The notes beneath the pieces are model-generated. The model was not told the DNA's origin, searched no databases, and saw only the letters and a program-made list of their open reading frames with translations. Position numbers and translations under genes: made by a program. Positions 18,843 to 37,496 of a stretch of 37,675 nt of DNA are shown here, piece by piece; positions within the stretch are counted from its first letter, which is position 1; each line of letters begins with the position of its first letter. This stretch comes from Muribaculaceae bacterium (GTDB taxonomy: Bacteria > Bacteroidota > Bacteroidia > Bacteroidales > Muribaculaceae). Location of the stretch: the NCBI GenBank assembly GCA_017940245.1, contig JAGAYZ010000035.1, forward strand, positions 1 through 37,675, in the 5' to 3' direction.

Positions 18843-18855
18843 TTCCACTCATGTC

Positions 18856-19632: not shown

Positions 19633-19673
19633 CGAAAAAACTTATCATTAATTTATAAACCGTAATTATAGTC

Positions 19674-20510: not shown

Positions 20511-20520
20511 TTTAGTAAAC

Positions 20521-20591: not shown

Positions 20592-20606
20592 ACAACAATA
20601 CTGAAA

Positions 20607-21746
20607 ATGGATTTTAGCTATTCAAAGACAGAACAACTGTTCCTGCAGATGATTCGCTCGTTTGCTGAGAACGAAGTAAAGCCTTTGGCTGCCGAGGTCG
20701 ATGAGCAAGAGCGTTTCCCCATCGAGACCGTTCAGAAAATGGGCAAACTCGGCATCATGGGCATTCCTGTGCCCAAGCAGTATGGCGGCGCAGGAGGTAC
20801 AGTGCAAATGTATATCATGGCCGTTGAAGAACTCTCACGCGTGTGCGCCACTACAGGTGTGATTGTTTCGGCCCACACCTCGCTGTGCATGGCTCCCATC
20901 ATGGAGCACGGCACCGAGGAGCAGAAGATGAAGTATCTGCCTAAACTGGCTTCGGGCGAGTGGATTGGCGCATTTGGCCTTACCGAGCCTAATGCCGGCA
21001 CCGACGCAGCCATGCAGCAGACCACCGCAGTGGATGCTGGCGACAAGTGGATTCTTAACGGTTCTAAGATTTTCATCACCAATGCCTCTTATGCCAACGT
21101 GTTCATCGTGATGGCCATGACCGACAAGTCAAAAGGCACGAAGGGAATCTCTGCTTTTATCGTGGAGAAGGGCATGCCCGGTTTCTCCATTGGTAAAAAG
21201 GAGCTGAAAATGGGTATTCGTGGCAGCGCCACTTGCGAGCTCATTTTCGAAAATTGCGAGGTGCCCAAAGAGAACCTGCTCGGGCAGTTGGGCAAGGGCT
21301 TCAGCATCGCCATGAAGACCCTCGACGGTGGCCGCATCGGTATCGCTTCACAGGCTCTGGGTATTGCTCAGGGAGCCCTTGACGAGACCGTGAAGTACAC
21401 CAAGGAGCGCAAGCAATTTGGCCGCGCTATTGCCAAATTCCAGAACACGCAGTTCCAAATGGCCGACCTCAAGACAAAGGTTGAGGCCGCCCGTCTGTTG
21501 GTGCGCAGTGCAGCCTGGAAGAAAGACAATGGCATGCCTTATTCGGCCGATGCAGCTATGGCAAAACTCTTTGCCGCCGAGACTGCTATGGAAGTCACCA
21601 CCAAGGCTGTGCAGTTCCATGGAGGCTATGGCTACACGCGTGAGTATCCTGTTGAGCGCATGATGCGTGATGCCAAGATTACCGAGATTTACGAAGGAAC
21701 ATCGGAGGTCCAGCGCATGGTCATTGCCGGTCATTTATTTAAATAA
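20607..21746 (+). CDS. bcd: Butyryl-CoA dehydrogenase (acyl-CoA dehydrogenase family)
   Basis: 379 residues from ATG 20607. The longer frame from 20556 would begin inside the hairpin and adds residues foreign to the family. FAD-binding motifs are AFGLTEPNAGTDA and the KIFITNAS block. The catalytic base is Glu363 in IYEGTSEVQR. It reduces crotonyl-CoA to butyryl-CoA, most likely with EtfAB encoded immediately downstream (15 and 11 base gaps). In anaerobes this complex can couple the reaction to ferredoxin reduction by electron bifurcation. Whether it does so here cannot be told. Confidence 0.92.
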   Translation: MDFSYSKTEQLFLQMIRSFAENEVKPLAAEVDEQERFPIETVQKMGKLGIMGIPVPKQYGGAGGTVQMYIMAVEELSRVCATTGVIVSAHTSLCMAPIMEHGTEEQKMKYLPKLASGEWIGAFGLTEPNAGTDAAMQQTTAVDAGDKWILNGSKIFITNASYANVFIVMAMTDKSKGTKGISAFIVEKGMPGFSIGKKELKMGIRGSATCELIFENCEVPKENLLGQLGKGFSIAMKTLDGGRIGIASQALGIAQGALDETVKYTKERKQFGRAIAKFQNTQFQMADLKTKVEAARLLVRSAAWKKDNGMPYSADAAMAKLFAAETAMEVTTKAVQFHGGYGYTREYPVERMMRDAKITEIYEGTSEVQRMVIAGHLFK

Positions 21747-21761
21747 TAAAAGGAAAGCAAT

Positions 21762-22544
21762 ATGAATATTATAGTTTGTATTAAACAAGTTCCCGACACC
21801 ACCGAAATCAAGATAGATCCCGTGAAGGGTACCTTGATTCGTGAAGGTGTGCCGAGCATTATGAACCCCGATGACAAGGGTGGCCTGGAGCTGGCCCTGC
21901 AGATGAAGGACAAAGTGGGTGCAAATGTGACTGTGATTTCAATGGGTCCCCCCCAAGCCGATGTGATGCTGCGTGAAGCGCTCGCCATGGGTGCCGACCG
22001 TGCCATTCTGCTCAGCGACCGCAAGTTTGCCGGTGCCGATACACTGGCCACATCCTACGCTCTTTCGGGACTGTGCCGCGTGCTGGATTATGACTTGATT
22101 ATCGCTGGCCGTCAGGCTATCGATGGTGATACAGCCCAAGTAGGTCCGGAATTGGCCGAGCATCTGAATTTGCCGCAAATCACCTACGTAACCGACGCCA
22201 AGTTGCTTGACAACGGTAACCTGCTTGTGCACAAGGAGAACGAAGACAGTGTGCAGGTGCTGGAAGTTGAAGGTAAATGCCTGCTCACGGTGCTGGCTTC
22301 GGCATTTGAACCGCGCTACATGAGCGTGAGTGGCATCGTGGAGGCTTACGACCGCGAGGTGGAAGTGTGGAGTGCCGACAAGATTGACGTCGATGAAGGC
22401 AAGCTGGGTCTGGCAGGATCGCCCACTAAGGTGTTCCAGTCATTCCCCAAAGCCATGAAGGCTCCTGGTGAAGTTCACGAAGTGAGCGAGGAAGAAGCCG
22501 TTGAGCTGATTGTGAGTAAACTGAAAGAGAAACACATCATCTAA
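21762..22544 (+). CDS. etfB: Electron transfer flavoprotein, beta subunit
   Basis: 260 residues, the usual size. The N-terminus MNIIVCIKQVPDT and the AIDGDTAQVGP motif (near residue 121) are diagnostic of EtfB. It forms a heterodimer with EtfA that carries FAD and exchanges electrons with Bcd. A strong ribosome-binding stretch, AAAGGAAAG, lies before the ATG. Linkage to bcd, and an anaerobic butyrate pathway, point to the butyryl-CoA-dehydrogenase-associated group of ETFs. Confidence 0.94.
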   Translation: MNIIVCIKQVPDTTEIKIDPVKGTLIREGVPSIMNPDDKGGLELALQMKDKVGANVTVISMGPPQADVMLREALAMGADRAILLSDRKFAGADTLATSYALSGLCRVLDYDLIIAGRQAIDGDTAQVGPELAEHLNLPQITYVTDAKLLDNGNLLVHKENEDSVQVLEVEGKCLLTVLASAFEPRYMSVSGIVEAYDREVEVWSADKIDVDEGKLGLAGSPTKVFQSFPKAMKAPGEVHEVSEEEAVELIVSKLKEKHII

Positions 22545-22555
22545 AAGTCGGATCT

Positions 22556-23572
22556 ATGGAAAAGAAAGATTATAAGAACGTATTCGTTTTTGCAGAACAA
22601 CGCGAAGGTGTTATCCAGTCCGTTGCATTTGAACTTTTAGGTAAGGCTCGTGACCTGGCCGATGACCTGGGCCAGAAAGTGGTGGCTCTGCTGCTGGGCA
22701 GTGGCATCAAGGATCAGGCTCAGACGCTCATTGAGTTTGGTGCCGACGAGGTGATTGTTGTAGATACTCCCGAACTGAAGGATTACCTCAGCGAGCAGTA
22801 TTCGCAAGCCGTGTATCAAATCATAGACGATCGCAAGCCCAACATCGTGCTTTACGGTGCCACGACCATCGGTCGCGACATGGCTCCCCGTCTGGCATCG
22901 CGCCTGAAAGCCGGTCTCACGGCCGACTGTACCAAACTGGAAGTGAAGCCAAACAAGGAAGAAGAACTGGAATTACATTCAACCCGTCCCGCATTTGGTG
23001 GTAACCTGATGGCTACCATTGTGTGCCCCAACACTCGCCCACAGATGTCAACGGTGCGTCCTGGCGTGATGCAGAAAATGCAGCGTCAGCCAGGTCGTCA
23101 AGGAGTGGTAACTGAGTTTACCCCCATATTCGACACCTCGAAGTTTAAGGTGAAACTGGTGGAAACCATCAAGGCCGACAAGCAGATGGCCGACATTTCG
23201 GAAGCAAAGATTCTGGTTTCGGGTGGCCGTGGAGTCCACAATCGGGAAGGTTTCGACAAGCTCCAGGCTCTGGCCGACGTGCTGGGCGGACAAGTGGCTT
23301 CGTCGCGTGCCATGGTGGACAATGGCGTGATGCCTCATGAGTGCCAGGTGGGTCAGACGGGCAAGACCGTGCGTCCCAACCTCTATGTGGCTTGCGGTAT
23401 CAGCGGTGCTATTCAGCACCTAGCCGGAATGGAAGAGTCTGATTTTATCATTGCTATCAACAAAGATAAATTCGCTCCCATTTTCAGCGTGGCCGATCTG
23501 GGTATCGTGGGTGATTTGCACAAAATCGTGCCCATGCTCACCGAGCGTCTGCGCAAAGAAATGGAGCAGTAA
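22556..23572 (+). CDS. etfA: Electron transfer flavoprotein, alpha subunit
   Basis: 338 residues. The C-terminal FAD domain is plain: VSGGRGV (around 222-228), VASSRAMVDNG, QVGQTGKTVRPNLYVACGISGAIQH and IIAINKDKFAPIF. The N-terminal domain carries the FVFAEQREG start and a YGATTIGRDMAPRLASRL segment. It is the last gene of the lysine/butyrate operon and is followed within 30 bases by a strong terminator. Confidence 0.94.
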   Translation: MEKKDYKNVFVFAEQREGVIQSVAFELLGKARDLADDLGQKVVALLLGSGIKDQAQTLIEFGADEVIVVDTPELKDYLSEQYSQAVYQIIDDRKPNIVLYGATTIGRDMAPRLASRLKAGLTADCTKLEVKPNKEEELELHSTRPAFGGNLMATIVCPNTRPQMSTVRPGVMQKMQRQPGRQGVVTEFTPIFDTSKFKVKLVETIKADKQMADISEAKILVSGGRGVHNREGFDKLQALADVLGGQVASSRAMVDNGVMPHECQVGQTGKTVRPNLYVACGISGAIQHLAGMEESDFIIAINKDKFAPIFSVADLGIVGDLHKIVPMLTERLRKEMEQ

Positions 23573-24330: not shown

Positions 24331-24361
24331 GCGAAAAATATATCGGCGCATTAGTGCCGAT
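24331..24361 (-). terminator. Probable terminator of the NRPS operon
   Basis: On the minus strand, ATCGGC (24356-24361) pairs with GCCGAT (24342-24347) around an 8-base loop, followed by the T-rich ATATTTTTCG. The stem overlaps the stop codon of the phosphopantetheinyl transferase gene. Confidence 0.5.
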
Positions 24362-24956
24362 GATGGCAAGTGGTGACAATGTAGTCGGGGCGGGTGATGG
24401 TGTGGAAACGGTATTGATGCTCGTCGACAAGCACAGAGTGCAGGTCACGGGTGATACCCTCTCCTGTGAGCTTGAGCCGGCTCTCTTTCATGGTCCACAG
24501 CGTGATGAACTCGGCAGCGGGTTCGGGCGACTGCAAGATGCGTTGCTGCTCCTCAAGGCTCATGGTGTAGTCGAGCAGCGAGGGGCTATAGCGGCCAATG
24601 CTCTCGATATCCACTCCCACGGGCTCGTCGTCGACTATACAGGCCACGGCTTCGCGGCAGTGACTCAGATTAAAATGGATGTGAGGGAATCCATCCAGGC
24701 TGGGCTTCCCGTTAGCCCCGTAGGTGAACGATGGCACCTTCCCGATTCCATACTGCTCTTTGAGTGCACGTTGCAACAGCAGGAAAGCGGCCAGGCAGAG
24801 TCGCCGGCCTTGCTCGTGGCGAAACCGGAGCGCATAGCTGCGACGCTCATCGCTCACGGCGGCCAGGGCCGCCGTGAGGTCGAGTTGGTGCACTTTGTCG
24901 TCGATATACAGCAAGTTATTAGTTGTTTGACTATGATTTGAGATTAAACTCCACAT
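24351..24956 (-). CDS. 4'-Phosphopantetheinyl transferase (Sfp-type)
   Basis: 201 residues from ATG 24956, the only ATG upstream of the conserved region. A longer frame from 24995 starts with TTG. It transfers phosphopantetheine from CoA to the serine of carrier domains. Motifs in order are NLSH (96-99), GVDIE (114-118, Mg-binding Asp/Glu) and WTMKESRLKLTGEG (154-167, catalytic Glu and Lys). It overlaps the MATE gene by 26 bases and is last in the operon. Its natural clients are the two carrier domains of the NRPS encoded two genes upstream. It could also serve fatty-acid ACP, but the linkage argues for secondary metabolism. Confidence 0.88.
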   Translation of the reverse strand: MWSLISNHSQTTNNLLYIDDKVHQLDLTAALAAVSDERRSYALRFRHEQGRRLCLAAFLLLQRALKEQYGIGKVPSFTYGANGKPSLDGFPHIHFNLSHCREAVACIVDDEPVGVDIESIGRYSPSLLDYTMSLEEQQRILQSPEPAAEFITLWTMKESRLKLTGEGITRDLHSVLVDEHQYRFHTITRPDYIVTTCHHRH

Positions 24957-26259
24957 GTGTGCTGCGGTGAAGCACAACGATTGCCAGAGCTTCAATCAGA
25001 TAAGCAATCAAGTAACTGTACCATAGCAGCGAGGGCATGGTGCGTGACATGATCCACAGCACCGGAATCACTGTGAGTGAAAGGGCAAACGAAATGAAAA
25101 GTGCCATGTGGTGATGTCCATAGAGCTTATAGACAATCATGAGCACATAGATGTAGCAGAACGGGATGAAACTCAGTGCGAACACGCGCAGGGCATGATT
25201 GCCCTCGGCAATGAGTTCAGGTTCGTTGGCTCCAAACAACTTGACGATGGCTTGTGGGTCGATCCACACAAACAGACAGGTCACTGCCATGGCGATGGTG
25301 ATGAAGCGGAAGGCCTTGCGCAACACGGTGCGCAACCCGTCTTCGTTGCCCTTACCCACTTGGATGGCACCCAGTGACTGCAAGGTCTGGCAGGTGCCCG
25401 ACACAAAGAGGTTGTAGATTTGCAGCAAGTTCATGCACACCGCAAAGGCGAAAATACCCGTGCGTCCCAAAGAGGAAAGCACGATGGTGTTGGCCGAAAG
25501 CAACAACAACGTCAAACAGATGGAGGCTATTGCAAGTGGAGCACCTTGTGAGACGATACGTCGCCACGATACCATCAAATCGCTGGTGGTGAAATCCAGT
25601 GTGAGACGCCTGTTCTCCGGTTTTCGCCAGTGCATGAGCAGAATCGCAATACCCACAAGGTGGCCTACCACAGTGGCCGCCGACGAACCTGTAATTCCCC
25701 ATCCCAGCCACTGGATGAACACAATGTCGAGGCACAGGTTCACCACGTTGTCGATAATCACCGCCAGCGACACCAGTCGCGGACTGCCGTCAACACCCAC
25801 CATGGTTGAAAGTCCCCACATGAGGATAAAGGCAGGATTGCCCAGTAGCAGTACCTGTAGGTAGTCGCGTGCCAGAGGCAATATTTGCTCATTGCTGCAC
25901 AGCAGCTTCGCCATCTGGTTAGGGAACATCATTCCTCCCACGATGGTGAGCAGTAGCCCTAAACTCACACTCAGTGTGAGAGCGCGGGTAAAAAAACGTC
26001 GCGCATCTAGGGTCTTGTTCTGTCCTAGGGCGTAGCCCACCAGCATGCCGGCACCTGCGTTGATGAGTAGGTGCAGTGTGAAGATGAACTGAGTGATGGG
26101 CTTGGACAGGTTGATGGCACTCACACCATCTTCACTGATCAAGTTTCCCACGATGATGCCATCCACCACATTGCCCAGGCATCCCGACAAGGCGACCAGG
26201 ATGTAGGCCCACAGATAACGATAGAATTGAGCGTTGATATTGTCGGTGTTTTGCTGCAT
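24931..26259 (-). CDS. MATE-family efflux transporter
   Basis: 442 residues with about 12 hydrophobic segments arranged as two six-helix halves, typical of MATE exporters driven by H+ or Na+ gradients. Recognisable features are GNVVDGIIVGNLI in the first helix pair and the LINAGAGMLVGYALGQNK loop. It begins 10 bases after the NRPS stop and overlaps the phosphopantetheinyl transferase gene. Context suggests it exports the NRPS product across the inner membrane or protects the producer. The substrate is inferred only from linkage. Confidence 0.88.
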   Translation of the reverse strand: MQQNTDNINAQFYRYLWAYILVALSGCLGNVVDGIIVGNLISEDGVSAINLSKPITQFIFTLHLLINAGAGMLVGYALGQNKTLDARRFFTRALTLSVSLGLLLTIVGGMMFPNQMAKLLCSNEQILPLARDYLQVLLLGNPAFILMWGLSTMVGVDGSPRLVSLAVIIDNVVNLCLDIVFIQWLGWGITGSSAATVVGHLVGIAILLMHWRKPENRRLTLDFTTSDLMVSWRRIVSQGAPLAIASICLTLLLLSANTIVLSSLGRTGIFAFAVCMNLLQIYNLFVSGTCQTLQSLGAIQVGKGNEDGLRTVLRKAFRFITIAMAVTCLFVWIDPQAIVKLFGANEPELIAEGNHALRVFALSFIPFCYIYVLMIVYKLYGHHHMALFISFALSLTVIPVLWIMSRTMPSLLWYSYLIAYLIEALAIVVLHRSTHVEFNLKS

Positions 26260-26269
26260 TTCCTAAGAT

Positions 26270-29200
26270 TTATTCAAAGAAACCAAAGCCACTGATGGCT
26301 GTGAGCATGCGTTCCACGTAGTCCCAAGATGTGGGCGACCAGGCAAATCCTAGACGATAGAGCACCTGTGTGGTGTAGTCGTTGTCGCGGTTCACATCGG
26401 TGGTTTTCTGTCCGTGTGCCATGTCCTGATAGGCGAGCAGCGACGACATCTGCTTTGCCTTCTGCGGATCGTTTTTAGCGAGGTCCATGGCTTGAACGAA
26501 TTCTTCCTGCTCAACAAATCTCACACCATCACTCACGCTGTGAAGACCGGTGAGCACGTCGCCCAGGAACTGGCCGTGGATGTTGTAGGGATGGAACACG
26601 GTACATTCTTTGGGTGTAGAGCTGAGCAGCACAATGGCATGAGCCACCTCGTTGATGGGCGAGAATTCCACTCGCTTGTTGCGCATGCCGTAGGGGCAGC
26701 ATCCCAGCATGTTGTAAACCTTGATGCGGCCCATGAACGAGTTGGTGGAGAAATTGGCTTGGAACTCGCCATCGGTGGATCGTGCAGCCAGATTGCCCAC
26801 GCGCATGATTTTCGCACTCAGTCCGTGCAGTGCCACGGCATCCAGAATGAGCCGCTCGGCCATGAACTTGGAATAGATGTACTTGTTGCCCAGATATTGT
26901 CCCATGTAGAGCTTCTGCTCGGTGAAGGTCTCGTCTTTGGTCTCACCGGCCCACAGGCCACGGGTGCTTGCCGTGGAGATGTGGATGAGCTTGGCTCCGT
27001 TCTTGATGCAGAATTCCACGCAGTGTTGCGCGCCGCCGATGTTCACATCCTCAATCTCGGTGCCCTCGCTGAAGTGTTTCACGATAGCTGCGCAGTTGAA
27101 CACGGTGTTGATGCCGGCATCGGCCAGTGAGTCGAAGTTGCCAGTCACATCGCCCAGCACCACGTGCAGGCGAGTGCCAAACAGAGGCTTGAAGGCATTG
27201 TCGAAATAGTAGAAGAGCAGTGAGCGCAGTCGGCTCTCGGCCTTTTCCTGCGTTTTCCCGCGCACCAGGCAGTAGATGTTGGCAGCGTCTGAGTCAATCA
27301 GTTCGCGCAAGATGTGTATGCCCAGGTAGCCGGTGGCACCTGTGAGCAGCACGTTGCCCAGCTGCTGGCGCTCCCCGCGGCGGAAGTTGTCGAGGGTGTT
27401 GCGCTGTAGCGTGTTGTTGATGGCGGTATAATCAAATCGAGCCACCTCGTCCTGCCCATCGTCGGCAGCCTCTCCTGTGATGAGCCGTGCCAACTGGCGT
27501 GGAGTGGGGTTAGCAAACACATCGCCATAGGCTACGTGCAACCCAACCTTATCGGCCTCGATAATAACACGTGTCACTACCAGCGAGGTGCCGCCGAGTT
27601 CGAAGAAATTGTCGGTTGCTCCCACCTTGTCCATTTGCAGGATGCCGGCAAAGATGTCGCAGAAGGTGCGCTCGGTGTCGTTCACCGGTTCCACAAAGGC
27701 CGATGTGATGGCCAGTTCCGGCTCGGGGAGTGCCTTGACATCGGTCTTGCCATTGGGTGTCATGGGCATCTCGTCGAGTTGCAGGTAGGCCGTGGGTACC
27801 ATGTATTGCGTGAGGCTTTTGGAAATCTCGGCCTTGAGCGCGTCGGGCGCGATGGTGCGTTGGGCTGTATAGTAGGCGCATAGGTGTTCCTTGTCGTTGA
27901 TTTTGCGGATAAGGATTACCACTTTCTTCATGCCGTCTACCTTGAGCATGACGTTTTCAATCTCGCCGAGCTCAATTCGTAGTCCACGCAATTTGATTTG
28001 GTGGTCGGTGCGTCCCAGAATCACCACATCGCCATCGGGCAGCCACTTGGCATAGTCGCCCGACTTGTAGATGCGTTCGCCATGATAATCCACAAATCGC
28101 TCTCGCGTCATCTCATCCAGGTTATTGTAACCGCGTGCCACACCTCGGCCGCCAATGTAAAGTTCGCCCACAACGCCCACCGGCAGCTCGTTTCCGTCTT
28201 GATCCACAATAAATTCTTTCACGTTCAATTGTGGCTTGCCCACGGTGACCAGTTTGGCATGAGTGAGTTCCTTGTTGTTGGAAGCCACAGTGATTTCGGT
28301 GGGACCATAGCAGTTGAAGATGCGAGCCTTAGTCACGTTGCGCAACTGATTAAGCAGTTGGTCGGAGAATTTCTCTCCGCCGGCGCGCACGATGTCGATT
28401 TTGCCAATAGCTTGGCAGAAATCATCACTGGTGAGCCAGGTCTGCCAACGTGAAGGCGTACCTGAGACCATGTTGATGCGTTGTTCGTTGATGAGGTGCG
28501 CCAAGTCGAGCGGGTTGTTGGCCTGCTCTTCTGTGGCCAGAATGAGCGTCTTCCCGTTAAAGTATGCCATGCCGATGTCTTGCAGGGCTGCATCGAACGA
28601 GATGGTGGTAACGCTCAGCATGCGTCGGGCATCGGTGGCTACGGCATGGGCAAAGACGTTGGCAGGATGACCATAGAGGTAATTGCAGATGCCTTCGTGG
28701 CGCAGCATTACTCCCTTAGGACGGCCTGTCGATCCACTCGTGTAGATTAGGTAGGCCAGGTCGTCGGGTGTGATGTCGCACTGCGGAGCCACCGGGGCAC
28801 TGTCGCCATTAAGAAGCTGCTCCACATCGATGGCTTTGTCGGCCGGAACGTCGTTCATTCGGTCGGCTGTGGTGATGATGAAACGAGCCTCGCTGTCTTC
28901 CAGAATCAGTTTGATGCGGTCGGCTGGATACTCTGGGTCGCAGGGGATGTATGCGGCTCCTGCCTTGAGCACACCGAAGAGCGATAAAATGAGTCGGCTC
29001 GTGCGCGGCAACAGCAGAGCCACACGGTCGCGAGGCATTACTCCACGCTCACGTAAACCACAGGCAATGCGGTTACAAGCCTGATTCATCTCGTGATAAG
29101 TGAATTTGCCGTCGATGGCTACCAGGGCCTCATGGTCGGGTTGAGATTGGGCGAAATGGTCAATGCATTCGTGGAAGAAACTGAATGGAGCGTCGCCGGT

Positions 29201-32200
29201 GGCCGTCTGCCGCAGGCTGCCGAGTTCCGCTTCTTGCTCATGGCTGACGATGGACAACTGGCGCACGCGAGTCTCGGGTTGTTCGGTCATGCGCGATGCC
29301 ACAGTCGCGATGCTCTGAGCCAGTGACTGTGCCAATTGAAGACTATAAAGCGAATCGTCGTATTGCACCACCACTCCGCGAGATTCAATCTTGATGTTGA
29401 TTTTGAACTTGGGAACGTTCAGTTCCAGCAGTTCCTGTTCTACGGGTTGGCCATTGATCTGATACTTCGACAGGACTCCCACTTGGTAGGCATAGGCGAT
29501 GGCCGGCAGGAATCCGTAGTCGGTGGCGATGCGGGCAAACGGATAATCTTCGTGTCGCAGCGTCTGGTCGAAGGTTTCGCTAGTCGAGTGTAAGTATTCG
29601 CTTACGGAAGTATCGCCAATGTTCATTCCCAGTGCCAATGTATTGACAAACATACCCACGGTGTCGGCAATGCGCAGGTTAGAACGCCCACTGCTCACAG
29701 TGCACAGATACACCTCGCGGTTGTTGGTGTAGCGGCTCACCACATAGGCCGTGGCGGCAAGGAACAGATGAGCCGGTGTGATTTCCTGTTGCCGGCAGAA
29801 TGCGTTGGCCTTGTCAAAGTCGGCCGGGCACACAGCCTCGCCTATGAATCCTTGTTCGTCGGTCTTAGGCAAGTCGGCCGGAATCTCGCTTGCACCTTCG
29901 CAAGTCTGCAGTTTTTCGGCAAAGAATTGTTGTGAAGCCAAAAATTCGCTACTTTCTTCGGCTGCTTGTTGGTCGGCTACGAAATCGAGGTAGGAGTAGG
30001 TCTCGGCATCAATGTCTTTTCCTTCGAGAACGGCATGAATTTGCTTGAAGAACAAGTCGGCCGATCCACCATCGAAGATCAGGTGGTGCACATCAATGAG
30101 CAAATACACGGCCTGCGGTGTCTGAACCACCTCAAAACGGTAGAGCGGCGGTTTCTGCAAGTTGAAAGGTCGCACAAAGTCATGCTTGTATTGCTTCAAT
30201 TCCTCTTCACTCATGTGATTGACCGGGACATCGACCGGCACACTATCACAGGTTGTCTGCACAATGGTTTCACCCTCGGTGGTGAAATGCACGCCCAGTT
30301 CGGGGTGCGCCTCTACCACACGCTTGACGGCTTGAACCAGTTGCTCAGTTTTGATTCCAGATGGATAAGTGAGCAAATAGGGAATGTTATAAATGGTGGA
30401 AGTGGGATTTTTGAGGCACTCAAAATAAACACCTGTCTGCGCATAAGACAGTGGTGCGCTTACTCGCATTTCGGCTTTTGCAGGCGAGATGGTAGGAGTG
30501 GAGGCATTACCGCCAAGCATAGAAGATAGAATCTCGTTTTCAATGCTCTGCAAGGTGCCCGTCTTTACCAGAGCTCGAGAGTCGAGCGAGACACCATAAC
30601 GTTTATTCACTTGCACTGCCAGTTTGATGGCCGAAATGGAAGTGAGTCCGGCATATCCCAGCACGGTAGTGATACCAAAGTCATGATTACCCACGATGTC
30701 GGCCACGATGTCGTGCAGTTGCTGCTCCAGCACGTTCATTGGGGCATTGACCATTTCCTGCTCGGCCTGTGCCTTCTTTTCGGGCTTGGGCAGGGCACGC
30801 TTGTTCACCTTCTGGTTTTGGTTGAGGGGAATAGCATCAATCTGCATGGTAACTGCGGGAACCATATAGGGCGGTTTCTCATCGAGGATAAACTGGTTGA
30901 GCGCCTCGATGTCGATGGTGGTATCGGCCACAATATAAGCTGCGATGAATTTCCCTCCGCCCTCCTCGTCGAAGGCTTGCACCGTGGCATCTTTGATGCC
31001 TGGGAACTCGCGGATGATACTTTCCACTTCTTTCAGTTCGATGCGGAAGCCACGAATTTTCACTTGTCCGTCGCGACGTCCCACAAATTGGATGTCACCG
31101 CCAGGCAAGTAGCGCACAATGTCGCCCGTGCGATAGACGCGAGCATACTTCTGTTCGGTTGTGAAAGGATTGGGAATATAAACTTCGGCGGTTTTTTCGG
31201 GGCGGTTCAGGTATCCGCGGCTGACCTGCGGCCCAGCCACCCACAGTTCTCCGGCAGCGCCCACAGGCAACCGGTGTCCTTGCTGATCCACGATATAGAG
31301 TCGCATATTGTCGAGCGGCTTGCCGATAGGAATTTCCTTCAACTTGTTTTTCACCTCGTAGGTAGTGGTGAAGATGGTACACTCGGTGGGACCATAAACA
31401 TTGTGGAACCGATAACCCTGGGGAGGTGTGAGAGAAGCCAGTTTCTCGCCGCCGGTGGAGAGATGTATCAGCGATTTGTTGTCGACACTGGTGGCAAACT
31501 GGTATCCCACTTGAGTGGTCATGAACGAATGTGTAATCTGGTTCTGCTCGAAGTAGTCGTTTAGAGCGAGCAGGTCGAGGCGTATTTCTTCGGGGATGAT
31601 GTGTACGGCCGCACCGCAAGTGAGAGCCGGATACAGATCCATCATGCAGGCATCGAATCCATAGCTGGCGTAGGCAGCCACGCGGTGCTGCGACTGCAAG
31701 TTATAGAACCGCTGATACCAGTGGCAGAACGCTACCAGATTGCCGTGAGTGAGTTGGCATCCCTTAGGCACACCAGTAGAGCCAGAAGTGTAGAGCAGAA
31801 TGAACAGTTGTTGCGGCTTGATATCTACTTGAGGGAGATGCTGCTCCGGGAGCGAGTTGATGTCGCGGGTGAGCAACACGTCGCCCTGATATTCGTTAAC
31901 GATGTCGCGCAGGGCCTCATCGGCGATGAGCAGTTTGGCGCCGGCATCCTGCATCATGAAATTCAAGCGTTCCTGCGGATAGGTCGGGTCCAGAGGCTGG
32001 TAGGCGCATCCTGCCTTGAGCACACCTAGCGAGGCGATGGCCATCCACTCGCAGCGTGGAATGAGCGCAGATACCACGTCTTCGATTCCGAGTCCCATGC
32101 CGATGATGTGGGCGGCAATGCGGTCGCTTAGCTCGTTTACTTGCGCATAGGTGAAAGATTTATCTTTATAGACCACGGCCACGTTTTGTGGTGTGGCCTG

Positions 32201-33529
32201 CACCTGACGCGTGAAAAGCGACACGATGGTCTGTGTGGCATCATAGTCCACATCGGTGTGGTTAAAAGTGTCTAGAAGGTCAGTTTGTGACGTGGTGGAG
32301 ATGTTAATCTCATTCAGTAGCGTCTTGTTGAGGAAGCCTTCTACGACGGCTTCGTAGCTTTCCAGGAATTGCTCGATAAGTTCACGTGAATATTCATTGG
32401 AGTTATATTCGGCTTTTACATGGACTTTACCATTGAGAATGAACACCTTCAGGTAGAGCGATGCTTCCAGTGTGCTGTTGCCTAGACGCACGGTGACCAT
32501 GGGAATGCCATTGAATGTCTTATTGTTGAAGATTTCACCATGCCATGCAAACATGGAGTTGCATTGCAACTTTAGGTCGTTGACCACATCACTATATGTG
32601 TAGGCATCGTGCTTGCGGCATCCACTCATCTGTTCTTGTCCTTGTCGGATGTAGTCGAGAATTGAGGTCTCGGCTGTAAACTTGGAATAGACCGGCAACG
32701 TTTTCACCGTCATGCCCACACTGTGATTGAACCGCTTGTCGCTACGGCCGTTATACACGGTGGTGAAGAGCGATTCCATCTCGTTATTAAACTTGGCCAG
32801 CAAGAAAGCGTAGGCCGATGTGAACAAAGAACTCTTGAACACACCGTTCTCGCGACAGAAATCTTCAACGCGAGTCATGTCGGTGTTGAGAATGCGCAAC
32901 AGGTTATCCTCGGTGTGGACGGGATTTTCCAGGTCGGGCGTGAGTTGTGTAAAGGTGTCGCTGCAGTCGAAATTTTGCGCATACCATTGCTTTGCTTCGT
33001 CAAATGCGGGAGACTTTCTCAACTGTTCTTCGGCAAGAGCAACCTGGGCCATGGTGAGAGCTTCGGGTTGCAGCTCTTGGCTTTGATATGCTTTCTCGAT
33101 ATCGGTGAGAAGAATCTTCATTGAAGTGCCGTCGCACACAATGTGGTGAATATCATGGAACATATAGTAGTGTTTCCCATCACAGAACAAGCGGATGCGG
33201 AACAGACGGTCGCCCATGATGTTGAATGGGACCACAAGTTGAGGCTTGATGGTGTCGATGTCATTGATGTGCTCAATGGTAATCGTGAACTGCTCGTTAT
33301 CCATGTCCACGCTTTGGACGGGTTCTCCGTCATCGTCGAGCGAGATGCGGGTGAACAGGGTGGGGTGAGCCTTCACAGCCGACTCAATGGCCCGGCACAG
33401 ACGCTGGCCATCAAGACTGATGTCAAGAATATAAATGTAAGGGAGATTGTAGCATGGCTCGCCGGCATGGCTGAGACATTCCACATAGAGTCCGTATTGT
33501 GCTCGGTTGAGAGGTGCTGATGTTTTCAT
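26270..33529 (-). CDS. Dimodular non-ribosomal peptide synthetase ending in a thioester reductase
   Basis: 2419 residues, C-A-T-C-A-T-R. C1 about 5-410 has HHIVCDG (128-134). A1 about 430-915 has YTSGSTGVPKG (580-590), YGPTE (712-716) and YRTGD. T1 has pantetheine Ser964 in GLTSIS. C2 about 1020-1430 has HHLIFDG (1148-1154). A2 about 1450-1935 has YTSGSTGRPKG (1596-1606) and YGPTE (1741-1745). T2 has Ser1982 in LGGTSL. The reductase (2055-2419) has GATGYLG (2064-2070), Ser2185 and Tyr2217-x3-Lys2221. The enzyme should activate two amino acids, join them and release the chain as an aldehyde. By-eye pocket residues are DAMFSGVIFK for A1 and DAQSRGCVAK for A2. No epimerase, methyltransferase or thioesterase domain is present. 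A condensation domain at the very N-terminus suggests capping by an acyl donor. Confidence 0.93.
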   Translation of the reverse strand: MKTSAPLNRAQYGLYVECLSHAGEPCYNLPYIYILDISLDGQRLCRAIESAVKAHPTLFTRISLDDDGEPVQSVDMDNEQFTITIEHINDIDTIKPQLVVPFNIMGDRLFRIRLFCDGKHYYMFHDIHHIVCDGTSMKILLTDIEKAYQSQELQPEALTMAQVALAEEQLRKSPAFDEAKQWYAQNFDCSDTFTQLTPDLENPVHTEDNLLRILNTDMTRVEDFCRENGVFKSSLFTSAYAFLLAKFNNEMESLFTTVYNGRSDKRFNHSVGMTVKTLPVYSKFTAETSILDYIRQGQEQMSGCRKHDAYTYSDVVNDLKLQCNSMFAWHGEIFNNKTFNGIPMVTVRLGNSTLEASLYLKVFILNGKVHVKAEYNSNEYSRELIEQFLESYEAVVEGFLNKTLLNEINISTTSQTDLLDTFNHTDVDYDATQTIVSLFTRQVQATPQNVAVVYKDKSFTYAQVNELSDRIAAHIIGMGLGIEDVVSALIPRCEWMAIASLGVLKAGCAYQPLDPTYPQERLNFMMQDAGAKLLIADEALRDIVNEYQGDVLLTRDINSLPEQHLPQVDIKPQQLFILLYTSGSTGVPKGCQLTHGNLVAFCHWYQRFYNLQSQHRVAAYASYGFDACMMDLYPALTCGAAVHIIPEEIRLDLLALNDYFEQNQITHSFMTTQVGYQFATSVDNKSLIHLSTGGEKLASLTPPQGYRFHNVYGPTECTIFTTTYEVKNKLKEIPIGKPLDNMRLYIVDQQGHRLPVGAAGELWVAGPQVSRGYLNRPEKTAEVYIPNPFTTEQKYARVYRTGDIVRYLPGGDIQFVGRRDGQVKIRGFRIELKEVESIIREFPGIKDATVQAFDEEGGGKFIAAYIVADTTIDIEALNQFILDEKPPYMVPAVTMQIDAIPLNQNQKVNKRALPKPEKKAQAEQEMVNAPMNVLEQQLHDIVADIVGNHDFGITTVLGYAGLTSISAIKLAVQVNKRYGVSLDSRALVKTGTLQSIENEILSSMLGGNASTPTISPAKAEMRVSAPLSYAQTGVYFECLKNPTSTIYNIPYLLTYPSGIKTEQLVQAVKRVVEAHPELGVHFTTEGETIVQTTCDSVPVDVPVNHMSEEELKQYKHDFVRPFNLQKPPLYRFEVVQTPQAVYLLIDVHHLIFDGGSADLFFKQIHAVLEGKDIDAETYSYLDFVADQQAAEESSEFLASQQFFAEKLQTCEGASEIPADLPKTDEQGFIGEAVCPADFDKANAFCRQQEITPAHLFLAATAYVVSRYTNNREVYLCTVSSGRSNLRIADTVGMFVNTLALGMNIGDTSVSEYLHSTSETFDQTLRHEDYPFARIATDYGFLPAIAYAYQVGVLSKYQINGQPVEQELLELNVPKFKINIKIESRGVVVQYDDSLYSLQLAQSLAQSIATVASRMTEQPETRVRQLSIVSHEQEAELGSLRQTATGDAPFSFFHECIDHFAQSQPDHEALVAIDGKFTYHEMNQACNRIACGLRERGVMPRDRVALLLPRTSRLILSLFGVLKAGAAYIPCDPEYPADRIKLILEDSEARFIITTADRMNDVPADKAIDVEQLLNGDSAPVAPQCDITPDDLAYLIYTSGSTGRPKGVMLRHEGICNYLYGHPANVFAHAVATDARRMLSVTTISFDAALQDIGMAYFNGKTLILATEEQANNPLDLAHLINEQRINMVSGTPSRWQTWLTSDDFCQAIGKIDIVRAGGEKFSDQLLNQLRNVTKARIFNCYGPTEITVASNNKELTHAKLVTVGKPQLNVKEFIVDQDGNELPVGVVGELYIGGRGVARGYNNLDEMTRERFVDYHGERIYKSGDYAKWLPDGDVVILGRTDHQIKLRGLRIELGEIENVMLKVDGMKKVVILIRKINDKEHLCAYYTAQRTIAPDALKAEISKSLTQYMVPTAYLQLDEMPMTPNGKTDVKALPEPELAITSAFVEPVNDTERTFCDIFAGILQMDKVGATDNFFELGGTSLVVTRVIIEADKVGLHVAYGDVFANPTPRQLARLITGEAADDGQDEVARFDYTAINNTLQRNTLDNFRRGERQQLGNVLLTGATGYLGIHILRELIDSDAANIYCLVRGKTQEKAESRLRSLLFYYFDNAFKPLFGTRLHVVLGDVTGNFDSLADAGINTVFNCAAIVKHFSEGTEIEDVNIGGAQHCVEFCIKNGAKLIHISTASTRGLWAGETKDETFTEQKLYMGQYLGNKYIYSKFMAERLILDAVALHGLSAKIMRVGNLAARSTDGEFQANFSTNSFMGRIKVYNMLGCCPYGMRNKRVEFSPINEVAHAIVLLSSTPKECTVFHPYNIHGQFLGDVLTGLHSVSDGVRFVEQEEFVQAMDLAKNDPQKAKQMSSLLAYQDMAHGQKTTDVNRDNDYTTQVLYRLGFAWSPTSWDYVERMLTAISGFGFFE

Positions 33530-33553
33530 AGAGTTTGTCGTACAATTAATAAA

Positions 33554-34885
33554 TTACCATTTGATGGAGAAAATTCTAGGGTTGATAGAGAGCATGATCC
33601 ACGCCCAATGCAGGCGGCAATTGCCCTCATATCGCTGCAAACGTTTCAGGGTGTTTGTTCCGTTCATATAGGTGTAGCCGGCGCTCAGTTTCACATTCTT
33701 CATGATGGAGTAGGAAGCCAAAAATTCAAACTCATTGCCCAAACTGCGATCGGCTTCAGAAACTTTACTGGCCACCGCCAGATAGTGATAATAAGCCTCT
33801 AGAGAGAGCTGGTGAATGGGCGCATAGCGGGCACCGAAGTAAAAATTCTGCAATCCCGGCGTGTATCCGCCATAAAAGCCACTGAGATAGAAGAAGTCCA
33901 TGGCACCGTAAAACTTGTGGTGGGAACCATAAACGGTGTTGAAACCTTTCACCTTGGTGTGTAGTGCCATGCCCAGGGATCCAGGCTTGGGCACTACCGG
34001 GTTGTCGTCGCCGCTCAGATAGTCATATCCGGCTGTGAGACCCCATTTCTCGTGCGGGGTGTAATCGGCTTTCAAAGCGGCCATCCAAGCCGAGATGGGA
34101 GTCTTGAACTCATCCTTGCCCATCTGCCGGTAATAGGAGACCTCCACCGACCAGCGGCGGGGCTTGAATGTAACATATCCACCCAGCAGTTGCTGGTATT
34201 GGGTCTCGGGTTTGACTTCGGGGTCGGTGATATCAGGACTTTGCAAGCCCACATTCATGAATGTAACCGAAACCCCCAGTGGCCAGCGAGGAAAGTCGTA
34301 ATGGTACCAGGCTGTGAGCAGCGTTTTGTGAGGATAAGCACCACTTTTTGTGTCGTAGATGGTGCCGCCATTGGTGCTTTCCGACTTCTGGTTGTAAGAG
34401 CCAATGACGTGAATCTTGTGGCCATGTCCTTCATATCCCAGCCTGATCGCATCGTGTGTGTTGGCCGCCATGGCCCAGTCATTACTGCCCAAAATGCGCT
34501 CATCATCGTAGGCTAGTGTTTGGCGTCCCAGTTGGGCAAACAGGCCATTGTTGGCTCGTAATTTGGCCCAAGTTTCGGAAAGATTGAACGAACCTTTGCC
34601 TTTTTCTCCCCACACACCCGAGTGTTGCGCAGTGATTTTTAATTCCAGCCATTTTCTCGCGAAGCCAATGCCCAGGCGAGTGCGTTCCAGGATAAAGCGG
34701 GCATCATCGTTCTTGATGCCATTTTCGTCGCGCAATCCCCCGTCGCGTAACTCGCCGCGCGTCATGATTGAGGCATCTACGGTGAACGTGTTGGGGTGTT
34801 CATCATCTGTAGCCTGTCCCCATGCGGGCACTGACAGCAACGCCACCATACCTGCCATGCCGGCAAGTTTAGTCAGTAGGTTCAT
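33554..34885 (-). CDS. Alginate-export-like outer-membrane beta-barrel protein
   Basis: 443 residues. A signal peptide (1-23, ending VPAWGQA) is followed by amphipathic beta strands throughout and a C-terminus ending in aromatic residues (IFSIKW), as expected for an outer-membrane barrel. The block GRQTLAYDDERILGSNDWAM (123-142) and the preceding 'ETWAKLRANNGLFAQL' region are typical of the alginate-export (AlgE-like) porin domain found in many Bacteroidota. Alginate as substrate is not implied. It lies 11 bases after the STAS gene and 24 bases before the NRPS gene, so it may let the product cross the outer membrane, or take up a precursor. Confidence 0.78.
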   Translation of the reverse strand: MNLLTKLAGMAGMVALLSVPAWGQATDDEHPNTFTVDASIMTRGELRDGGLRDENGIKNDDARFILERTRLGIGFARKWLELKITAQHSGVWGEKGKGSFNLSETWAKLRANNGLFAQLGRQTLAYDDERILGSNDWAMAANTHDAIRLGYEGHGHKIHVIGSYNQKSESTNGGTIYDTKSGAYPHKTLLTAWYHYDFPRWPLGVSVTFMNVGLQSPDITDPEVKPETQYQQLLGGYVTFKPRRWSVEVSYYRQMGKDEFKTPISAWMAALKADYTPHEKWGLTAGYDYLSGDDNPVVPKPGSLGMALHTKVKGFNTVYGSHHKFYGAMDFFYLSGFYGGYTPGLQNFYFGARYAPIHQLSLEAYYHYLAVASKVSEADRSLGNEFEFLASYSIMKNVKLSAGYTYMNGTNTLKRLQRYEGNCRLHWAWIMLSINPRIFSIKW

Positions 34886-34896
34886 GGTGCGAAATG

Positions 34897-35202
34897 TTAT
34901 TCCACATTAAAAAGATTGATGAGTCCAGTCATGTTGAACACGTTCTTGATGTCGTCGTTCATGCTGCGCAGTGTCACCGTGCTACCACAAGCCTTGGCTC
35001 CTTTTAGAATGGCCAGCAGGATGCGCAGTCCACTGGATGCGATATATTCCAGTTTTTCGCAGTCAATAACCACTTCGCGTCCGTCGCTGTGATACAGGGG
35101 TTGCAACGCTTGTTCCACCTCGATGGCGGCTGCAGTGTCGAGTTCACCTTCCAGAGTGGCAATCAACTTGCCGTTGATTTCTTCAATGCTTGTTTTCATC
35201 AT
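34897..35202 (-). CDS. STAS-domain anti-sigma factor antagonist-like protein
   Basis: 101 residues, a single STAS domain. The phosphorylatable serine is expected at Ser57 in IASSGLRILL (54-63). In SpoIIAA-type proteins an Asp precedes the serine pair, and here it is Ala55. Its ATG (35202) overlaps the TGA stop of the upstream phosphatase/kinase gene as ATGA, so the two are translationally coupled. Partner-switching logic predicts the HATPase domain phosphorylates this protein and the SpoIIE domain dephosphorylates it. The downstream target of the unphosphorylated form is not encoded here. Confidence 0.88.
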   Translation of the reverse strand: MMKTSIEEINGKLIATLEGELDTAAAIEVEQALQPLYHSDGREVVIDCEKLEYIASSGLRILLAILKGAKACGSTVTLRSMNDDIKNVFNMTGLINLFNVE

Positions 35203-37418
35203 ATTTTATGTATTTTATTGTTTAATTTTTTTCTTAACGTAAGAATGTTTTTCCCGTCGATGCGCTCATAGTTGATGGAGTCCATCATTTCGCGCACTAG
35301 GAATATTCCCAGTCCACCTATGGGTCGTTCTTCTACCGACAGTGTGGTGTCGGCTTTCTGGGCTTCGGTGGGGTCGAAAGGCTTACCGGAGTCGGTGATG
35401 ATGAACTTGAGAGTGATGCCATTAGTTTTTGCGTCGACAATTACGTCGCCCGTGGTGCCGGCCGGGTAGGCATATAGCATGACATTGACCACGGCTTCTT
35501 CCACGGCCAGTTTCATTTGTTGTGACAATGAGGCCTCAAAGTTCAGTTGCGTGGTGACATGCTCAACGAAAGCATTAAGCAATGGGATTTGCTTGATATC
35601 ATTTTGGAGCACGATTTGCTCGTTGAGCAGTTCGTGATAGACCTTGGGCGCATAGTGAATGGCTAGCATGGTGAGGTCGTCGCTCTGTTCGGCACCATCG
35701 GTGAACTGATTCACGGCTGTGGTCATCTCATCCAATAATTCCCGGGTGGTCAAATTCCTGTCAATACCCACCTTGAGTGTCTGCAGCAGGCGTTGCCGGC
35801 CGAACTGCTGGTGTTGCCTATCCATGGCCTCGGTAAGTCCATCGGTATAAAGAAATAGAGTGGAGCCCGGAACGAACTTATATTCTTGTACTTCATATTT
35901 GAAGTCGTGAATAATACCGGCAGGCAGATTAGGCTTGACCTGTAGCAGCTGTGCCTTATCGGTGAGTAACATCGGGGTATCGTGACCAGCGTTGCAGTAT
36001 CGTAATCGTCCCGTGGGGATATCCAGGATGCCAATGAAGAAGGTGACGAACATGTTGCGCTCGTTGTTGCGGCAGATGGTGCGATTGATGGTCTGCATGA
36101 TGCTGTTGGGGTTGCTGGCGTGTTGCGACCCGGCGTGGAACAGAGCCTGTACCACAGCCATCACCAGTGCCGATGGAACCCCTTTCCCGCTCACATCGCC
36201 GATGCAGAAGTACAGTTTCTCGTCTCGTACGATGAAATCGTAGAGGTCTCCGCCCACCTCTCTGGCCGGAGCCAGTAATCCACTCACGTCCAGATCCTCG
36301 TGAAGTGTAGCGGCAGACTGAGAGCGGGGGAGCATGGCTTGCTGTATTTCGTTGGCAATGTGCAGCTCGCTACTGATGCGCTCCTGGGCTACCTGAGTCC
36401 GATGCAGTTTGCGCTCATTATTGAAGAATCTCATAATGATGAATCCTAGCAGCAATAGAGCACCCACCAGTGCCAGCAGGATGAAGTGCGTCAGTCTGTC
36501 GAGTTTTCCGTACACCTCATCGTCGTAGCACACCACTGCAATCTTCCAGTGTGGTATGCCCCTCATGTTGGCGTAATAGATGCAGCCTCTCGACTGATCG
36601 GCATTGCTTTTAAATACGAGATAGACACTGCGTCGGGTGCTGCTGGAGTCGCGCGACACAGTGCTGTCGTTGATGAGTTTGAGCACTTGTTCCACATCGT
36701 GAGCCTTGGAGTCGGAGGGTGAAGGCTTGGAAATGAGTTTTCCGTCTTCGGTGAGCAGCAAGTTGAACGATGACGGGTAGATGTGGTGGGCATCCAGTGT
36801 GTCGCTAAGCCATTCGAGCGACATGTCGATGCAAAAGATGCCGGCGATTTCTTTTTTCTTGTTGAGCACGGGGCGTGAATAGGAGCAGATGAGTTGGTGC
36901 CTGGACACACTGTCTATGTAGGGATCCGACCAATAGGGTTCGCCCGTCTGCATGGGTATGCGGTAGAAATCCATTTTGGTGTAGTCGTGCTGCTCGCCGG
37001 CAATTTGACGGGTGATGATTTCATCGTCTATTTCTTGAGCATAAGGCTCAAAGAGCACTCCTTTCTCAGGGTAATAATTGGGGACGAACCCCATGCCTAC
37101 ACCTTCCAGGTATTTATTTTTAGCTAGCAGCCATTTGGCGGCTTTGAACACCGTATCCGGATTGTCAAGGCTGGTGCGGATGTCCCACATGTGGTCGGTA
37201 ACCGTTTTTTCGGCACTTTTGAGTACTCCCTTGACCAGAATGGATTTCATGATCAGCTCGGTCTCGGCACGATTGTCCAGCTCGTCGGTGAGTAATTCTC
37301 GTGTAAAGAGATATTGCACAACAAAGATAATTAGCAGTAATAAAGCCGCCAAGATGATGATTACCAGGTTCTTGATAATCCTAGGCGAGTGGATTATTTT
37401 GCTGAAATAACTCTTCAT
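35199..37418 (-). CDS. Membrane sensor / SpoIIE phosphatase / HATPase fusion (partner-switch regulator)
   Basis: 739 residues. TM helices at 17-39 and 310-331 flank an extracytoplasmic sensor (about 45-300) that looks like a double-Cache ligand-binding domain (for example GVGMGFVPNYYPEKG and a FCIDMSLEWL strand). A cytoplasmic PP2C/SpoIIE phosphatase follows, with metal-binding motifs GGDLYD (389-394), GDVSGKG (407-413), YTDGLTE (524-530) and DDLT (580-583). The C-terminus (605-735) is an RsbW-like HATPase with N-box EEAVVNV (640-646), TDSGKPFDP and GGLGIFL (701-707). Phosphatase and serine-kinase activities are thus in one chain. As first gene of the operon it is positioned to link an external signal to the STAS protein. 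Confidence 0.9.
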   Translation of the reverse strand: MKSYFSKIIHSPRIIKNLVIIILAALLLLIIFVVQYLFTRELLTDELDNRAETELIMKSILVKGVLKSAEKTVTDHMWDIRTSLDNPDTVFKAAKWLLAKNKYLEGVGMGFVPNYYPEKGVLFEPYAQEIDDEIITRQIAGEQHDYTKMDFYRIPMQTGEPYWSDPYIDSVSRHQLICSYSRPVLNKKKEIAGIFCIDMSLEWLSDTLDAHHIYPSSFNLLLTEDGKLISKPSPSDSKAHDVEQVLKLINDSTVSRDSSSTRRSVYLVFKSNADQSRGCIYYANMRGIPHWKIAVVCYDDEVYGKLDRLTHFILLALVGALLLLGFIIMRFFNNERKLHRTQVAQERISSELHIANEIQQAMLPRSQSAATLHEDLDVSGLLAPAREVGGDLYDFIVRDEKLYFCIGDVSGKGVPSALVMAVVQALFHAGSQHASNPNSIMQTINRTICRNNERNMFVTFFIGILDIPTGRLRYCNAGHDTPMLLTDKAQLLQVKPNLPAGIIHDFKYEVQEYKFVPGSTLFLYTDGLTEAMDRQHQQFGRQRLLQTLKVGIDRNLTTRELLDEMTTAVNQFTDGAEQSDDLTMLAIHYAPKVYHELLNEQIVLQNDIKQIPLLNAFVEHVTTQLNFEASLSQQMKLAVEEAVVNVMLYAYPAGTTGDVIVDAKTNGITLKFIITDSGKPFDPTEAQKADTTLSVEERPIGGLGIFLVREMMDSINYERIDGKNILTLRKKLNNKIHKI

Positions 37419-37465: not shown

Positions 37466-37496
37466 CAAAGTTATAGCTTTTTGTTTACATTACCAA
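37466..37496 (-). promoter_or_regulatory. Promoter of the six-gene NRPS operon
   Basis: On the minus strand, TTGG (37493-37496), a 19-base spacer and TAACTTTG (37466-37473) fit the Bacteroidota consensus. ATG 37418 lies about 50 bases downstream. No other clear promoter is seen in the short gaps of the following genes. Confidence 0.6.

Follow-up and report, generated by a model that had tools for sequence, protein, structure and literature searches.

The stretch of DNA studied here, called the window below, is the 37,675 nucleotides of contig JAGAYZ010000035.1 (assembly GCA_017940245.1) of a Muribaculaceae bacterium. The contig ends at position 37675, so the window covers all of it; the genome is 80% complete. 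Six co-directional genes occupy 37418 to 24351 on the minus strand. They encode a SpoIIE-type sensor-phosphatase-kinase, a STAS protein, an outer-membrane porin, a nonribosomal peptide synthetase (NRPS), a MATE-family exporter and a phosphopantetheinyl transferase (PPTase). We put the probability that this operon makes an N-acyl dipeptide aldehyde, controlled by a dedicated partner switch, at roughly 0.6, judging from sequence comparison.

The first-pass annotation of this DNA had reported six same-strand genes that overlap or are at most 24 bp apart, and the open reading frames (ORFs) and Pfam domains bear this out (Table 1). The SpoIIE and STAS genes overlap by 4 bp. This is followed by gaps of 11 bp (STAS/porin), 24 bp (porin/NRPS) and 10 bp (NRPS/MATE), and the PPTase gene overlaps the MATE gene whichever of its two starts is used. 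Pfam scores are 167 bits for SpoIIE, 85 for HATPase_c_2, 67 for MCP-like_PDC_1, 54 for STAS, 115 for MatE (over cut-off, in two stretches) and 49 for ACPS. For the MATE subfamily model TIGR00797 the exporter reaches 127.8 of 147.4 bits, which is below cut-off.

Table 1 Features of the six-gene block, with the domains of its synthetase.
Feature	Position	Strand	Description
Candidate promoter element TAACTTTG	37466..37473	-	48 nt upstream of first gene; TTGG 19 nt before element
SpoIIE-type sensor-phosphatase-kinase	35199..37418	-	739 aa; MCP-like_PDC_1 (PDC/dCache), SpoIIE PP2C, HATPase_c_2 (RsbW/SpoIIAB-type); Pfam
STAS anti-sigma-antagonist-type protein	34897..35202	-	101 aa; Ser56 of phospho-acceptor type; Pfam, NCBIfam TIGR00377 over cut-off
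Outer-membrane porin, Alginate_exp group	33554..34885	-	443 aa; Pfam 33.5 bits, cut-off 25.2; alignment of 24
NRPS C1-A1-T1-C2-A2-T2-R	26270..33529	-	2419 aa; Pfam
NRPS C1	32270..33529	-	motif HHIVCDG; putative N-acylating (starter-role) condensation domain
NRPS A1	30782..32236	-	code DAMFLTVIFK, aliphatic residue predicted; best solved relative LgrA
NRPS T1	30530..30727	-	Pfam, alignment
NRPS C2	29222..30457	-	motif HHLIFDG; peptide-bond-forming condensation domain
NRPS A2	27722..29182	-	code DAQSVACVAK, aromatic residue weakly predicted
NRPS T2	27479..27667	-	Pfam, alignment
NRPS thioester reductase R	26273..27358	-	glycine motif and Tyr2217/Lys2221 invariant in 81/81
MATE-family exporter	24931..26259	-	442 aa; no kinase domain in the window; Pfam
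Sfp-type PPTase	24351..24995	-	TTG start; in-frame ATG at 24956 likelier; Pfam ACPS
Terminator-like stem and T-rich tail	24342..24361	-	overlaps end of last gene (PPTase)

The candidate promoter follows what we take to be the Bacteroidales-type consensus. The lipoprotein gene downstream of the block has a separate TATCTTTG element of its own. Separate promoters inside the block would speak against a single transcript; a strict scan with this consensus gave none there, which is weak evidence because the upstream candidate escapes the strict scan as well. A sigma-70-type scan found 12 sites versus 11.0 in shuffled sequence, and a terminator scan 17 versus 13.1, both about chance. From their layout, the six genes are likely to be a single operon.

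By Pfam, the NRPS consists of two Condensation (C), two AMP-binding (A) and two PP-binding (T) domains and one NAD_binding_4 thioester reductase (R). These are two complete modules closed by an NAD(P)H thioester reductase, and the C-A-T-C-A-T-R architecture of the first-pass annotation is confirmed in full. The 80%-complete genome has two Condensation matches, both in this protein. The alignment used comprises 81 NRPSs: that of the window, 76 from named loci described below, and 4 distant ones. All of them share the second His and the Asp in each of the two C motifs; the Ser of the T domains and the glycines, Tyr and Lys of the reductase are likewise invariant. C1 has retained the first His of its motif in 79/81 and C2 in 80/81, and it is intact in the C1 of the window. 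C1 is the least conserved domain, with a mean pairwise identity of 0.594 against 0.702 for C2; going by these residues it is clearly maintained despite this.

Substrate codes were obtained by aligning core motifs to the positions of GrsA, and 'aliphatic' and 'aromatic' follow general code patterns. Among 77 close NRPSs, the A1 code starts with DAMFLT in 64 and the A2 code is DAQS[CVA]ACVAK in 60. Solved relatives agree with the codes only loosely. For A1 this is LgrA, and for A2 it is tyrocidine synthase 1 (314.9 bits), the nearest among chains with a single matched stretch.

Relatives were sought in 397 genomes of the family. The whole NRPS is matched in 130 of these at E at most 1e-50, short single-A-domain matches included. 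The NRPS family as counted here consists of long multi-domain members, chosen by hand; a contig-edge fragment in genome G164 and single-module genes of 1434-1460 aa are left out. On this count it is present in 82 genomes, 68/84 within the genus and 14/313 outside. Of 100 other genus genomes searched, 58 have an open NRPS frame that is complete or almost so, with 72-81% identity; together with the recurring gene order described below, this goes beyond chance. The 80 named loci are the best 80 of 580 confirmed candidates, and hence biased to close kin; they overlap with the 397 genomes as sets. Their genomes are uncultured or metagenome-assembled and carry labels such as Bacteroidales, Prevotellaceae, Bacteroidaceae and Muribaculaceae; samples from the rumen or other parts of the ruminant gut appear in many of the titles.

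Among the named loci, 58 extend 6 kb or more upstream of the NRPS and 3 kb or more downstream; 41 of these keep the order SpoIIE-STAS-porin-NRPS-MATE, and 25 also have a PPTase after MATE. The synteny in relatives on which the first-pass annotation depended is thus there. The terminal reductase and, as the predicted release product, its dipeptide aldehyde also hold up. Within 6 kb upstream, SpoIIE is found in 57, STAS in 61 and porin in 53 of the 65 loci with that much sequence. Within 3 kb downstream, 55 of 67 such loci have MATE and 29 a PPTase, and the PPTase was rejected as an obligatory part. The one in the window is the only PF01648 match found in its 80%-complete genome. Many congeners have a second such match elsewhere, or only one, not at the NRPS.

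Eight of the 65 loci do not have both switch genes within 6 kb upstream (L039, L058, L059, L067, L074, L106, L109, L110). In four of them STAS lies 10-92 bp before the NRPS: L039 and L106, where SpoIIE is 7.5 and 8.7 kb away, and L058 and L059, where no SpoIIE was found. L074 has both genes downstream, on the opposite strand, and L110 has two NRPSs, with a STAS fragment at the cut end before the porin. Other orders are porin-SpoIIE-STAS-NRPS (L040, L121), MATE-NRPS-ligase-SpoIIE-STAS-PPTase (L130), SpoIIE-STAS-NRPS-MATE-PPTase (L132, L147), MATE-NRPS-SpoIIE-STAS (L150) and PPTase-NRPS-SpoIIE (L122). That the linkage of NRPS and switch survives such wide shuffling argues for a functional tie.

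Synthetases of other sizes also occur. L121:7542-16574 is a three-module A-T-C-A-T-C-A-T-R enzyme without C1, possibly making a free-amine tripeptide aldehyde. By coordinates, G367 and G383 perhaps also have three modules; the domain map is from L121 only. Several congeners have a single-module C-A-T-R NRPS of 1434-1453 aa (L134-L139), and no SpoIIE or STAS match was found within the stretches examined there; not every reductase NRPS therefore comes with the switch. A single-module C-A-T-R gene also directly follows the two-module NRPS in L041 (17363-21712). L041 and L110 both have a tandem NRPS pair at one locus.

The two genes at the head of the operon together encode a PP2C SpoIIE phosphatase, an HATPase_c_2 kinase and a STAS protein with a phosphorylatable Ser, the parts of an Rsb/SpoII-type partner switch. 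The PP2C-type residues Asp391/408/526/580/581 and the kinase residues Glu641/Asn645 are at least 97% conserved in 82 sequences, as are STAS Ser56 and Gly58 in 62. In NCBIfam the phosphatase protein comes closest to SiaA (NF038263), with 62 bits under a cut-off of 700. Among the ORFs and Pfam matches of the operon, no output gene for the switch was recognised.

A strong SpoIIE, meaning at least 76 bits, is present in 98 of the 397 genomes. These include 82/82 NRPS-positive genomes, against 16/315 NRPS-negative ones. Outside the genus the figures are 14/14 with the NRPS versus 8/299 without. Fisher p is 3e-7 in the genus and 4e-19 outside it, values that are indicative only given the kinship of the genomes. 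Where both genes share a contig, 71 of 74 pairs are within 6 kb; in 8 NRPS genomes they are on separate contigs. Of the genomes with a strong SpoIIE, 92/98 have exactly one. The first-pass annotation had called the built-in switch unusual, yet it is no peculiarity of this genome: its genes are present with their catalytic residues, and go with the NRPS family across genera and gene orders.

What the switch may act on is suggested by natural fusions. A search with a hidden Markov model built from the kinase domain of the SpoIIE proteins found a C-terminal RsbW-type kinase domain on 12 MATE ORFs, which belong to divergent clusters, and none on 74 others. HATPase_c_2 is over the Pfam cut-off in 5/5 fusions tested, and the ATP-site residues are invariant in 11/11 aligned. 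The HATPase_c_2 matches in the 397 genomes (E at most 1e-6) include 15 frames of 575-670 aa. Two of these are the SpoIIE proteins of G350 and G223. The other 13 are exporter-sized, and each has a member of this NRPS family 0.05-3.4 kb away; MATE was confirmed in fetched loci for 11 of them, not so for G101 and G320. In L133 the SpoIIE protein has no kinase and the neighbouring MATE bears it. The SpoIIE proteins of L160 and L162 also lack the kinase, and their genomes have a MATE-kinase at another NRPS cluster (L142, L161). Seven further kinase-less SpoIIE ORFs are cut, split or masked frames (L036, L074, L143, L144) or stand in other contexts (L108, L167, L169). That the kinase can be part of the phosphatase protein or of the exporter suggests that the switch controls the exporter.

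From the protein families, the PDC sensor would read an outside cue and tip the balance of SpoIIE phosphatase and HATPase kinase on STAS Ser56, and the phosphorylation of STAS would then set aldehyde production or export. Our tentative proposal for this last step is post-translational gating: the STAS state, via the RsbW-type kinase, may open or close export (or activity) of the aldehyde. STAS would bind the kinase domain on the sensor in the window and on the MATE exporter in relatives, and the electrophile would be released only on demand.

A number of observations weigh against so close a coupling. The MATE of the window itself has no kinase domain. Two of the genomes with a kinase-less SpoIIE have a further kinase in addition to the MATE fusion: G337 a frame of 165 aa, G373 a full SpoIIE-kinase. 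In G154, 53 kb separate SpoIIE from the NRPS; in L068 SpoIIE adjoins the NRPS, with STAS 5 kb off. In the L109 and L067 stretches, which contain the NRPS, neither of the two switch genes was found. The porin-SpoIIE-STAS trio occurs without the two-module NRPS, eight genus genomes having a strong SpoIIE and no such NRPS (G156, G164, G272, G280, G319, G347, G369, G391), and SpoIIE-STAS pairs are found in other settings (L163-L166). The genomes are also kin, so co-occurrence counts are not independent.

The switch could instead act on transcription. The HATPase would then hold an unlinked sigma factor which STAS frees, with the NRPS operon as one of several targets. HATPase_c_2 and STAS are indeed relatives of RsbW and SpoIIAA, each of 18 genomes has 5 to 21 Sigma70_r2 matches elsewhere, and the switch module exists without the NRPS and in the other gene settings just mentioned. 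Against this, the physical linkage to the NRPS persists through many gene orders, and 12 exporters carry the kinase domain. Among the matches listed, no Sigma70_r2 lies within 9 kb of the NRPS in the 18 genomes (the nearest is in G026). A sigma factor beside the cluster was rejected on this basis, although a weak one could escape. We consider control through an unlinked sigma factor rather doubtful. With no listed match within 9 kb, the exporter or the assembly line is a likelier point of control than a sigma factor encoded close by.

Two of the settings without this NRPS have some features of their own. In L163 and L164, SpoIIE-STAS is beside what by eye appears to be an ABC-transporter gene set. 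In L166 it heads a row of co-directional genes that includes a distant adenylate-forming match.

Turning to the product, the proposed gating would act on an N-acylated aldehyde. The motif of the first C domain is intact and there is no aminoacyl module upstream, as in the N-acyl subgroup. Five homologous loci (L086, L130, L131, L150, L153) have an extra AMP-binding and carrier domain ahead of C1. In these loading domains the position of the Asp that binds the alpha-amino group is Ile in four and Val in one. Four of the five were scored, giving 206-216 bits with the amino-acid adenylation model and 182-199 with the long-chain fatty acid CoA ligase model. With the same two models, A1 of the window scores 389 versus 177, and the first A domain of L121, in which the Asp is kept, 393 versus 191. 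Because the Asp is replaced in 5/5, the substrate passed to C1 of the extended enzymes should be a non-amino acyl group. In the enzyme of the window this C1 is the first domain, with no loading unit, so that an acyl-CoA or acyl-ACP (acyl carrier protein) is a likely donor there. An adenylate-forming, CoA-ligase-like gene adjoins the NRPS in 8/80 named loci, plus L130, L153, L155 and L156; it matches F390-synthetase-related and PaaK models, always below cut-off.

No acyl-activating enzyme was recognised in the block of the window. With this, and with no sigma factor nearby among the matches listed, the word 'self-contained' in the first-pass annotation is too strong.

On the plus strand of the window, convergent with the NRPS operon, 15694-23572 holds genes for D-lysine 5,6-aminomutase subunits, CoA transferase, an enoyl-CoA hydratase family protein, 3-hydroxyacyl-CoA dehydrogenase, acyl-CoA dehydrogenase and EtfBA. 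This looks like a lysine-to-butyrate fermentation. The same lysine genes (acyl-CoA dehydrogenase 96% identical) are found in L115, beside a porin-SpoIIE-STAS trio without NRPS. As a conserved acyl-donor link these genes were rejected, with acyl-CoA dehydrogenase in 1 and EtfA in 2 of 112 loci (L001-L112), many of which are stretches too short to show them. They are a possible acyl source in the genome of the window alone.

In the proposed pathway the PPTase would prime T1 and T2. C1 would acylate an aliphatic amino acid bound to T1, with CoA or ACP as the source of the acyl group. C2 would add a second residue, probably aromatic, on T2, and R would release the aldehyde reductively; the last is established chemistry for this domain order and is predicted here. 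The MATE exporter may then move the aldehyde across the inner membrane. Acylation of the N-terminal amine would block the aureusimine-type closure to a pyrazinone, and the product would stay an electrophile. It would most likely be a serine/cysteine protease inhibitor, directed at neighbours, ciliates or host enzymes.

An aureusimine-type synthetase would lead to another product: C1 would be inactive or unused, and a free-amine dipeptide aldehyde would cyclise to a dihydropyrazinone or pyrazinone. The best NCBIfam match of the NRPS is AusA (NF047350), a maker of a free-amine product according to PMC12153313, and that of the PPTase is AusB. The AusA match has 1513 bits under a cut-off of 2500, and the AusB match is likewise below cut-off, which counts against this type. 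As inferred from the alignment offset, the AusA profile has some 400 residues before the first A domain, yet the same text describes AusA as A-T-C-A-T-R.

The low conservation of C1 fits an unused domain, and its typing does not favour a starter role either. Profile and sequence comparison with solved C domains from the PDB did not bring C1 nearer to the starter type: the RzmA profiles (7c1h/7c1k) score 28.6/28.4 bits for C1 versus 46.1/48.1 for C2, and CDA C1 (4jn3) 23.9 versus 27.3. We take all three to be starter-type structures. Speaking for acylation are the second His and Asp of C1, invariant in 81/81, the acid-loading units ahead of it in homologues, and the CoA-ligase-like neighbours. 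Because of the catalytic residues and the acid-loading homologues (5/5), closure to a dihydropyrazinone or pyrazinone is disfavoured and the aureusimine type is unlikely. Of the product in the first-pass annotation, the dipeptide aldehyde stands as a prediction, and its cyclisation is the less likely fate. An N-acyl-(aliphatic)-(aromatic)-aldehyde of the octanoyl-Met-Phe-H or ruminopeptin type is likelier, as far as domain content can tell.

The porin, which the first-pass annotation listed as part of the block, is present there and is not a general part of NRPS loci: outside the genus it was seen in 1/14 (L152), several loci being cut by stretch or contig ends. It is kept with SpoIIE-STAS where no NRPS is near (L114, L115, L116, L118). 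In L117, L119, L140 and L141 the NRPS is absent, and SpoIIE, STAS, porin and PPTase are still there (STAS in L117 by tblastn). These four are apparent synthetase losses; a 233-aa MATE fragment is left in L117, and MATE was not found in the others. Judged by these gene contents, the porin goes with the switch and not with the NRPS. A role as general exporter of the product is not supported, given the trio without NRPS and the rarity of the porin in the loci from outside the genus. From the same loci it follows that the switch has, or had, another role too. That it mainly controls porin and neighbours in an envelope or nutrient response, with the NRPS cassette inserted behind a convenient promoter, is improbable given the MATE-kinase fusions and the 14/14 NRPS genomes outside the genus with a strong SpoIIE.

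Elsewhere in the window, a tmRNA gene (tag GENTYALAA) occupies 7376-7775 (+).

The peptide aldehydes that gut bacteria make inhibit proteases. Here a synthetase found in most sampled genomes of one genus (68/84) is coupled to a sensor and partner switch, and natural domain fusions point at the exporter as the controlled step. This makes cue, switch and export step directly testable. If true, it would mean that a signalling-kinase domain has been built into a peptide exporter. More such systems could be found by genomic signature, either a MATE-HATPase_c_2 fusion or SpoIIE-STAS beside a reductase NRPS. In the rumen a protease inhibitor under such regulation would matter in practice, as protein breakdown and protozoal predation affect nitrogen use there.

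RsbU/RsbV/RsbW, SpoIIE/SpoIIAA/SpoIIAB and SiaABCD are partner switches. Like these, the window has a PP2C phosphatase, an anti-sigma-type kinase and a STAS-type antagonist with conserved residues. Unlike them, phosphatase and kinase are on one sensor protein and linked to an NRPS, no sigma factor is near the NRPS among the matches listed, and in relatives the kinase can sit on MATE. Post-translational gating of an NRPS system would, to our knowledge, be new; MATE-HATPase fusions were not searched for in print. We also know of no partner-switch genes at the AusAB locus.

AusAB (aureusimine/phevalin/tyrvalin) provides the closest NCBIfam models, although the NRPS and PPTase of the window score under both cut-offs. 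According to PMC12153313, the free-amine products of AusA cyclise to pyrazinones, with valine first and an aromatic residue second, which resembles the aliphatic-aromatic prediction here.

No description of NRPS-partner switch coupling was found in the literature, nor a match for rumen Prevotella peptide aldehydes; as subscription papers were mostly outside the scope of these searches, both negatives are weak. The rumen Bacteroidaceae have been reported to hold 934 NRPS clusters, according to Anderson and Fernando 2021 (PMC8241843), and the NRPS family of the window is probably among these. That text is a bulk list, and as far as it is accessible it describes no architecture, regulator or exporter fusion.

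The gut N-acyl dipeptide aldehyde clusters, presumably also of two modules with reductive release, are closest in predicted product class. These are N-octanoyl-Met-Phe-H (BGC0001686) and the ruminopeptin of Ruminococcus bromii (PMC8518294, PMC12327764), and according to a review the N-acyl tail may stabilise such aldehydes (PMC8210680). They come from Clostridium and Ruminococcus, and the accessible parts of these sources mention no partner switch, porin or exporter-kinase fusion. The predicted product class is known, and a dedicated partner switch tied to the exporter is apparently undescribed.

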